Shown: positions 29,150-32,485 of the stretch, piece after piece | How positions within the stretch are numbered: position 1 is the first letter of the stretch | How the letters are laid out: every line of letters starts with the position of its first letter | Source of the DNA: Gammaproteobacteria bacterium | GTDB taxonomy: Bacteria; Pseudomonadota; Gammaproteobacteria; Xanthomonadales; Xanthomonadaceae | DNA length: 32,485 bases | Assembly (NCBI GenBank): GCA_030431185.1 | Contig: JAUIJO010000003.1 | Location: 1 to 32,485 of the forward strand | Direction of reading: 5' to 3' | Position numbers and translations under genes: made by a program | The notes under the pieces: generated by a model | The model's input: only the letters and a program-made list of their open reading frames with translations | The model's database searches: none | What the model was told of the DNA's origin: nothing

Positions 29150-29255
29150 CCTCGATTCCAGGGGACATGGAAGGTCGGTCCAAGGACCGCGAAGCCGCAC
29201 GGGGGGAGGCGACGGCAGCCCTCGCCAGCCGCGTAGCCCGGACAAGCGCAAGGCC

Positions 29256-29496
29256 GTAGGGTGGGTAGAGCCGAAGGCGAAACCCACCGTCGCGTAGCCG
29301 CACGCATGAGGAACGATGGGTTTTGCTTCGCGCTACCCATCCTGCGAAGCCACGAACACCTGACCGCCAGCCACGCAGGGCCGTAGGGTGGGTAGAGCCG
29401 AAGGCGAAACCCACCGTCGCGCAGCCGCACGCATGACGAACGATGGGTTTTGCTTCGCGCCACCCATCCTACGAAGCTGCGAACGCCTGACCGCCC
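29256..29496. repeat. Two tandem copies of a palindrome-containing repeat, 128 bp period
   Basis: gtagggtgggtagagccgaaggcgaaacccaccgtcgcg...gatgggttttgcttcgcg[c/t]acccatcc begins at 29256 and again at 29384; near-identical over about 113 bp. Confidence 0.9.
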
Positions 29497-30891
29497 CTAC
29501 TCCCAGCAGCGGTCGCGCCGGCCCTTGAGGGTTGCCTCGCGCACGCAGTCGCGTGGCGCGATGCGGCCTTCCCGCCGCTCCACCACGCGCTTCGGACCCG
29601 GCCCGGCGTCGACCAGGTCGAAGGCATCGTAGAGACGCCCGGTCGCGGTGCGGGCCTCGTAGCCCAGCCGCCCGTCGGCGATGCGGATCGCCTGGAACAA
29701 CTGCGTGTCCTCCCCCACCGGCGACATCGTCGACCGGGCCTCGGCGGACAGCCGGTACTGCTTGGCCCCGGCCACCGACACCACGAACACCGGCGCGCGC
29801 GACGCGTCGTCCAGTCCCCGGCGGCCATAGGTATGGTCGTGGCCCTGCAGGACCAGGTCGACGTGGTGCGCGCGTATCACCGGCAACAGATGATCGCGCA
29901 GGGCCGCGTTCTCGCGACCATCGCGCGGGGAGAAGAAGGGCTGGTGCAGCAGCACCACGCTCCAGCGGTTCGGGTTGCCGGCGAGGACGCCATCCAGCCA
30001 TTCGGCCTGCGCGCGCGCCGTGCCCAGATCCAGCGCCGAGGTGCCGTCGATCACGGCGATGCGCACGCCCTGGTAGTCGAACCAGTAGGTCGTCGCCGCG
30101 CCCGTCCCGCCCTGGATGCCATTGGCCGGCAAGGCGAACTGCACCGGCCAGTGGCCGCCGAGCACGCGGCGCTCCCGTGGCGTGTCCTCGAATTCCTCGA
30201 AGTATTCGTGGTTGCCCGGAGCGGGCGCCGTCATCGCCGACGTGGACAATACCCCGGTCGCGTCGAACCACTCGCCCCATTCGTCGTCGTCCTCGCCATC
30301 GCCACCGCTGACCATGTCCCCTGCGTACAGGACCAGGCGCGCGTCGGGCGCGTGCCGCAGCGCTTCCCGCGCCACCCGCGAAGTAAGGCTGAGGTTCTTG
30401 TTCTGCGTGTCGCCGAAATACAGGAGCTCGAGCGGCTCGCCGACGACCCCCGCGGTCCGCAACTGCATCCACGCGCTCCACGTACGGTCGCCGCCCACCC
30501 GATAGGCGTACAGGGTGCCGGGCTGCAGCCCGTCGACGTCCGCCCGATGATGGTGGGCGACGCCGTTCTCCGTGCCCAGCACCTGGCTCGTCGCGGCGAT
30601 GCGTCGCGGCGTGCCCATGTCCGGCGAATCGCCGGCGGGCACGATCTCCAGCCAGGGCGCTTCGACGCTCGCATCCGTGCGCCAGGCCACCGCGAAGCCT
30701 CGCGCGGCATCCTCGGCCGGCGACGCCACGATCCGGTCCGGGAAGCCGTCGGCGACGTAGCGCGCCACGCCGGCGGGCACCTGGGTGTTGGGCTCCGGTT
30801 CGCGAACCCGCACCGCGTCGCTGGCCGCCACGGTGCCGGACACCCCCAGGAGGGCCGCCAGGCCCAGGCGGCGCAGGGTCACGGTCGACAC
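29497..30891 (-). CDS. Secreted metallophosphoesterase, purple-acid-phosphatase-like N-terminal domain
   Basis: Signal peptide; LLYFGDTQNKN, LVLYAGDMVSGG, PAPGNHEYFEEF, LLHQPFFSPRDG, LVLQGHDHTYGRRG. Confidence 0.9.
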   Translation of the reverse strand: MSTVTLRRLGLAALLGVSGTVAASDAVRVREPEPNTQVPAGVARYVADGFPDRIVASPAEDAARGFAVAWRTDASVEAPWLEIVPAGDSPDMGTPRRIAATSQVLGTENGVAHHHRADVDGLQPGTLYAYRVGGDRTWSAWMQLRTAGVVGEPLELLYFGDTQNKNLSLTSRVAREALRHAPDARLVLYAGDMVSGGDGEDDDEWGEWFDATGVLSTSAMTAPAPGNHEYFEEFEDTPRERRVLGGHWPVQFALPANGIQGGTGAATTYWFDYQGVRIAVIDGTSALDLGTARAQAEWLDGVLAGNPNRWSVVLLHQPFFSPRDGRENAALRDHLLPVIRAHHVDLVLQGHDHTYGRRGLDDASRAPVFVVSVAGAKQYRLSAEARSTMSPVGEDTQLFQAIRIADGRLGYEARTATGRLYDAFDLVDAGPGPKRVVERREGRIAPRDCVREATLKGRRDRCWE

Positions 30892-30894
30892 GAC

Positions 30895-32013
30895 TCAGCG
30901 ACCGCAGGTCTTCAACGACAAGGCGCGTGCGATGTCGCGCCAGTCGAAGGCCGCGACGCCCTGGTCGTCGTCGACGGCGTAGAACACGCCCTCGGGAAAG
31001 CGTGCGTCGGGATGCATGTCCAGCCACACGCCATCGGTGTTGGCGGTGCGCTCGCCGGCGAATGCGCCGACGTGGGCCAGGCTCACGCGATCGAACACAT
31101 GGAACAGGCTGCGGTCCTTGAACTGGTCCGTCGCCAGCCAGTAGCCGCTTCCGTCGGCGCATGCATACAGGGCCATGCCCTCGGCCTGGGCCTTGAACAG
31201 TCCGGCGCCGACGTCGCGGACACGGTAGCGGCCATCGAGACCGTACTCCCGCAACCGGGTACCGACCGCCACGTCCTCCTCGGACAGCAGCAGGCGGTCA
31301 TGCGCGACGTCACCGTACACCGACTCGGCGATGCGGATGGCGCCGGAGGCGCCGGTATCGCCGAACGTGCCTGTCAGCGTGGCCTTCCAGCCGGCGTCGT
31401 GCTCCAGGCGGTAGCGCTTGAAGCGTTCACCGAGCTCGTCCAGAGGCGGCGGCACGTCCTCGTCCCGGGGCGACATGTAATTGTCGCTCACGATCACTTC
31501 GTAGCCGGCGCCCGCCTTGTGCACCCAGAGTCCATAGGGCTGCTGCAGCTCCGTGGAGCCGAAGGACAGCAGTGGCTCGAACGATGGCAGGGCGAACACC
31601 TGCACGCGACGGTTGTCGCGCTCGACGACGAACACCAGGTCGTCGACCACCGCGATCCCGTTGGGACGGTCCAGGCGGCCCGGCCCTTCGCCCGGTCCGG
31701 CGACCGCGCGGATGCGCCGGCCGGTGCCGCCGTCGTACACCACCAGCCGGTCGGTGGTCTTGGCCGTGGCGATCAGCCAGCGCGCGCCGTCGGGTGCCGT
31801 CCAGGACGCCGGCGAATCGATGTTGTCGTCCGGCGTCGGCGCGGTGGTGAACGCCTCGCGCACCACTTCGTGCGGGACACCGGCATCCACCAGGAGGGGA
31901 TCGACCTCCATCGTTTCGTCGGGTTCGTGTTCCGGCGACCCCCGCTCCACCGGCGCCGGGGTGGCACAGGCCGACAGCAGGACGGCTACGCAGAGGAAGG
32001 ACAGGTGTCGCAT
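30895..32013 (-). CDS. Phytase-like (beta-propeller phytase) lipoprotein
   Basis: Lipobox LLSAC; DNIDSPASWTAPDGARWLIATAKTTDRLVVYDGGTG, LLLSEEDVAVGTRLREYGLDG, EGMALYACADGSGYWLATDQFKDRSLFHVFDR, DGVWLDMHPDARFPEGVFYAVDDDQG match the beta-propeller phytase pattern. Confidence 0.82.
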   Translation of the reverse strand: MRHLSFLCVAVLLSACATPAPVERGSPEHEPDETMEVDPLLVDAGVPHEVVREAFTTAPTPDDNIDSPASWTAPDGARWLIATAKTTDRLVVYDGGTGRRIRAVAGPGEGPGRLDRPNGIAVVDDLVFVVERDNRRVQVFALPSFEPLLSFGSTELQQPYGLWVHKAGAGYEVIVSDNYMSPRDEDVPPPLDELGERFKRYRLEHDAGWKATLTGTFGDTGASGAIRIAESVYGDVAHDRLLLSEEDVAVGTRLREYGLDGRYRVRDVGAGLFKAQAEGMALYACADGSGYWLATDQFKDRSLFHVFDRVSLAHVGAFAGERTANTDGVWLDMHPDARFPEGVFYAVDDDQGVAAFDWRDIARALSLKTCGR

Positions 32014-32168
32014 CGGCATTGATCCCATTGCTGCAATGAATATGTCAGGAAAGCGCAACGTTCTACCCGAGTTTCGTGACGCTGCGGTGTCATCGCACCA
32101 GCGCCTGCTCCGGAGGGCATGGCCGTCCATGCATGCGCTGCAACCGGGCTGCCCCACGAACGTCACCC

Positions 32169-32224
32169 GCGTCATCGAACCGGCACGCGCATGTCATTTG
32201 CCTGCCATCGCACGGACGTACAAA
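32169..32224 (+). promoter_or_regulatory. Pho-box-like promoter of the TonB-dependent receptor gene
   Basis: ATGTCAT (32191-32197)-TTGC-CTGCCAT (32202-32208), 10 bp, TACAAA (32219-32224); extra in-phase GCGTCAT at 32169-32175. Confidence 0.5.
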
Positions 32225-32255: not shown

Positions 32256-32485
32256 ATGAAGCACACCCTCCTGGCCTCCAGCCTGTCCCGCGCCCTCTTC
32301 TGCGCCGCACTGCTGCCCGCCAGTCTCCCGGCCATCGCCCAGGACATGGAGTCGCCGGGCGCCTCCCCGGCTTCGCTGGCCTCGACCGGCGCGATGGCGG
32401 CCAAGGACCTGGACGCGGTGGTGGTCCAGGCCGGCATCGCCTACCGCAACCGGTCCGAGGCGACGGCCCCGACCCTGGTCTACGA
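32256..32485 (+). CDS. TonB-dependent receptor, N-terminal fragment (runs off the window)
   Basis: MKHTLLASSLSRALFCAALLPASLPAIAQDMESPG...AAKDLDAVVVQAGIAYRNRSEATAPTLVYD: signal peptide followed by a LDAVVV-type TBDR start. Confidence 0.75.
   Translation, partial: MKHTLLASSLSRALFCAALLPASLPAIAQDMESPGASPASLASTGAMAAKDLDAVVVQAGIAYRNRSEATAPTLVY

Follow-up and report, generated by a model that had tools for sequence, protein, structure and literature searches.

What controls a TonB-dependent receptor gene that stands back to back with a phytase gene? The question arises at the right end of the window, a whole contig of 32,485 nucleotides (G000:C330) from a draft genome that is 86% complete and whose relatives within the genus correspond to Lysobacter (now Marilutibacter) spongiae, aestuarii, penaei, maris, and chinensis. 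There, the two genes diverge from a 237-bp intergenic region. The phytase (PF02333; minus strand, 30895–32019, starting at 32019 or 32013) is a predicted lipoprotein; its match, confined to the C-terminal part, scores 32.3 bits against a curated cut-off of 21, which identifies a beta-propeller phytase. Just 3 bp downstream, on the same strand, begins a gene for a purple-acid-phosphatase-like metallophosphoesterase (29497–30891; PF16656 and PF00149), which therefore probably belongs to the phytase operon. (Two direct copies of a 122-nt repeat, 93% identical, lie at 29247–29368 and 29374–29495 and reach to within 2 bp of where the phosphatase gene ends.)

The receptor gene begins with an ATG at 32256 on the plus strand and runs off the end of the contig (32256–32485); the window holds its first 76 residues only. 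The remainder is very probably G000:C245:1–1983, and the two parts are 69% and 62% identical, respectively, to a relative's receptor. The closest full-length relative used (L040) contains plug and beta-barrel domains, and the C245 part contains the barrel, which identifies the product as a TonB-dependent receptor.

The initial annotation saw in the region before the receptor gene a phased, Pho-box-like repeat, and its positions and spacing proved exact when checked on the sequence. The core box consists of ATGTCAT (32191–32197) and CTGCCAT (32202–32208), each matching the E. coli PhoB half-site CTGTCAT at six of seven positions. Exactly 10 bp (32209–32218) separate it from a −10 hexamer, TACAAA (32219–32224). 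Two further heptamers lie upstream on the same 11-bp period: GCGTCAT (32169–32175; offset −22 from the core box) and the weaker CCGGCAC (32180–32186; offset −11), which reads GCGCCAC or CCGCCAC in the closest relatives. The core thus forms an NNGTCAY-like heptamer pair whose second member, NNGCCAT, is sub-consensus by one mismatch; most divergent relatives have C[CT]GCCAT at this position. E. coli Pho box promoters place the box about 10 bp before the −10 hexamer and lack a good −35 hexamer, for which phosphorylated PhoB on the Pho box stands in.

How much weight can this resemblance bear? Apart from ATGTCAT and CTGCCAT, neither strand of the window has a pair of heptamers with the 11-bp period that both match CTGTCAT at six or more positions. 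Base composition predicts 0.03 such pairs in the window and about 2.8 in the 2.96-Mb genome, so agreement with the E. coli consensus is by itself suggestive, not decisive: a few pairs per genome are to be expected as chance resemblances without function.

A matrix built independently of this locus gives a sharper measure. It comprises 31 sites from the upstream regions of phoB (TIGR02154 matches) and pstS-like genes of relatives, with an effective number of 3.8 that reflects only two promoter families. In the training promoters, two heptamers 4 bp apart are followed after 10 bp by the −10. This layout is identical to that before the receptor gene, but the −10 hexamers (TCTACT, TTTCAT) and half-site preferences differ. 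At 15.4 bits, inside the training range of 14.1 to 19.9, the receptor box outscores every other position in the window (64,904, counting both strands). The in-phase registers at 32180 and 32169 rank fourth and fifth; with the third-ranked site, described below, four of the top five positions fall within the 237-bp intergenic region.

The matrix was run over the window, and genome-wide statements are based on pattern searches. The pattern TGTCAY-N4-NNGYCAY-N10-TNNANW matches the genome twice, at the phoB promoter and at the receptor promoter; it was composed after both promoters were known, and these matches show its rarity rather than a discovery. Across seven genomes of the genus it finds 11 matches, including seven phoB promoters and two promoters of this receptor; the reversed control pattern gives none. 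The matrix was also applied to 20 other TonB receptors of the genome (which has 21 plug-domain matches; the receptor's own remainder on C245 was left out), and none of them reached 12. The best of these, L148 (G000:C118; 11.3) and L131 (G000:C267; 11.1), have borderline Pho-box-like sites followed at the right spacing by a TA-type −10, which in L148 is TAGCGT, as in some co-directional phytase receptors.

Does the phytase operon share this control? The initial annotation had ventured only a "perhaps". The third-ranked matrix site, absent from that annotation, is a second box that faces the phytase, ATGACAC-CGCA-GCGTCAC (32093–32076, minus strand), followed after 10 bp by a −10 hexamer, TAGAAC (32065–32060). 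An ordinary σ70 promoter was considered and rejected for both genes: the receptor side offers at best a 4/6 match to the −35 hexamer, and that only at a poor spacing of 15 bp, and the phytase side at best 2/6. The phytase box is the weaker of the two here (11.7 versus 15.4), and its half-site ATGACAC agrees with CTGTCAT at four of seven positions, as might be expected if PhoB acted on the receptor promoter only and the phytase operon were expressed from another promoter or controlled indirectly. That arrangement is unlikely, however: the combination of box and −10 geometry on the phytase side recurs in most divergent loci, often in stronger form (up to 16.5), and is missing from the co-directional loci, in which the receptor comes first. 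Control of the phytase operon by PhoB as well is thus best described as probable, judging from its own correctly spaced box and −10 and from their conservation in 23 of 29 loci of the divergent type.

Directly past the phytase −10 lies a further conserved block (32059–32038, minus strand), GTTGCGCTTTCCTGACATATT, which reads CGGTTTGTTGAC in relatives. In L154–L172 it is as strongly conserved as the box itself. It could be a start-site element or the site of a further regulator; on the plus strand it resembles another weak 11-bp repeat (TGTCAAC-AAA), and a similar sequence, GCCG[CG]TTT, comes after the receptor −10. Elsewhere in the genome, a second phytase-like gene (L056, G000:C83:11338–12306; 47% identical) was considered as an additional target and rejected, the best box near its start scoring only 7.6; no large TonB-receptor ORF occurs within the 6.5 kb examined.

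Comparison across the Lysobacteraceae places these boxes in context. In a scan of named genomes this phytase was found at 65 loci, and a TonB receptor adjoins it in every one. Two main receptor types account for most of them: one (29 loci) is almost always divergent from the phytase, with a single co-directional exception, and the other (33 loci with upstream DNA) is always co-directional, with the receptor first. A third type occurs at two loci (L196 and L199). Culturable relatives that share the divergent region include Marilutibacter spongiae and M. aestuarii. A receptor box scores at least 10 in 56 of 62 loci of the two main types, and at least 12 in 49, although related loci are not phylogenetically independent samples; among 320 control segments inside receptor genes, two reach 10 and one reaches 12. 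A few relatives (L204, and the third-type loci L196 and L199) lack a good receptor box. On the phytase side, a box of at least 10 is present in the divergent type (the 23 of 29 loci above) and in none of 32 co-directional loci, where the only box precedes the receptor as the first gene. Whichever the arrangement, the box therefore goes with the 5′ end of the transcription unit, a pattern that regulation would predict and chance would not.

The conservation is also structured within the promoter. Over this locus and nine divergent relatives, information content is 1.3 to 1.4 bits per column in the half-sites and 1.46 in the −10, against 0.25 in the 4-bp spacer. The TA of the −10 falls at one offset in 88% of divergent and 100% of co-directional non-redundant promoters, counts in which the anchoring favoured a −10 at that offset, although unbiased picks agree in most loci. 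The 11-bp phase, whose absence from orthologous regions was to have told against the initial annotation, is conserved. In 25 non-redundant divergent promoters, only the offsets 0 and +11 make better half-site positions than −22, where about 40% of them have a good GTCAY-type half-site. The upstream GCGTCAT is thus borne out. The closest species and some other members of the family share the four-repeat array, whereas others (L158, L159) have lost or altered it. The weaker CCGGCAC between the repeats fares less well: it is present, and its register ranks highly in the window, but the −11 offset is weak across the family.

Taken with the constant −10 offset and the recurrence in two gene arrangements, the conservation of half-sites relative to spacers contradicts chance resemblance, the possibility left standing by the pair count. 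The family-wide conservation leaves no further doubt about the observation, and chance, now scarcely credible, is rejected. Some side observations concern the receptors themselves. The loci L174–L218 and L154–L173 represent two different TonB-receptor families found beside this one phytase; each family has a Pho promoter of its own and a characteristic weak second half-site: CCGCCAT in the divergent type versus RTGAAAC in the co-directional. In L176 (Xanthomonas populi) and L204 (Pseudomarimonas arenosa, also without a box), the phytase-linked receptor is divided between two reading frames.

Which protein would read these sites? The genome encodes PhoB (TIGR02154; 374 bits, cut-off 296) and PhoR (TIGR02966; 425 bits, cut-off 334) side by side. 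This PhoB matches E. coli PhoB (3t72, 1gxp) in its DNA-binding domain, and the two proteins are identical in the segment RTVDVHIRRLRK, which we take from the PhoB–DNA structure to hold the DNA-contacting residues. Several OmpR/PhoB-family regulators bind direct repeats, and the genome contains 13 matches to this type of DNA-binding domain, so a relative of PhoB might conceivably use the repeats instead. This is very unlikely: the matrix derives from phoB and pstS promoters, the classic PhoB targets; the recognition segment shared with E. coli PhoB goes with the half-site CTGTCAT; and the gene content suits phosphate. Iron control through Fur, common at TonB receptors, has the class of the receptor in its favour, but the best intergenic match to a Fur box is 9/19, no better than in shuffled sequence (p 0.90); it can be given hardly any credence.

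The kind of control is already known, and this locus is a new instance. In E. coli, the pstS, phoB, and ugpB Pho boxes likewise consist of 7-mer direct repeats of CTGTCAT type every 11 bp. The receptor promoters here differ in that their second half-site (CCGCCAT or RTGAAAC) is conserved but falls short of the consensus. Phosphorylated PhoB binds 11-bp direct repeats head-to-tail and contacts σ70; multiple Pho boxes occur at E. coli ugp, and not every gene with a Pho box is obviously controlled by phosphate (PMC4415409). Literature searches for a low-phosphate transcriptome of a close relative found none. In Flavobacterium johnsoniae, the phytase Fjoh_1367 and the adjoining TonB receptor Fjoh_1368 are both induced by phosphate depletion (PMC8115612). 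This is the same adjacency, but in the Bacteroidetes, and the likeness is one of genes and induction. The Caulobacter crescentus PhoB regulon counts a phytase among its members, along with several TonB receptors (PMC11208175), a likeness of regulon membership.

The evidence as a whole favours a specific model, in which the intergenic region contains two divergent PhoB-dependent σ70 promoters, one for the receptor and one for the phytase and phosphatase, both induced in low phosphate. On the sequence evidence this is very likely correct. When phosphate is low, PhoR would phosphorylate PhoB, which would bind head-to-tail on the core box at 32191–32208, extended upstream by the repeats at 32180 and 32169. 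Bound PhoB would replace the missing −35 element and bring RNA polymerase to the receptor −10 (32219), from which the receptor gene would be transcribed. On the other strand, the box at 32093–32076 with its −10 at 32065–32060 would drive the phytase gene, and presumably the phosphatase gene by read-through. The likely outcome would be that phytate or lower inositol phosphates are taken up and hydrolysed in a coordinated way. The proposal of the initial annotation that phosphate starvation controls the receptor is thereby strongly supported, through the independent matrix, the presence of PhoB and PhoR, and the family-wide geometry.

Genomic context suggests inositol phosphates as a possible cargo of the receptor. 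A broader reading, offered tentatively and at somewhat less than even weight, is that the receptor serves specifically to import inositol phosphates across the outer membrane; that in the Lysobacteraceae two different TonB-receptor families have become linked to this phytase, each under a PhoB promoter of its own; and that the phytase and the phosphatase draw on uptake and not solely on hydrolysis outside the cell.

Together, these results would tie a phytase-linked family of TonB receptors to phosphate starvation through a precise, testable promoter architecture. The cargo of these receptors, whether phytate, lower inositol phosphates, or metal-phytate, thereby becomes directly testable in culturable species such as Marilutibacter (Lysobacter) spongiae or Pseudoxanthomonas.
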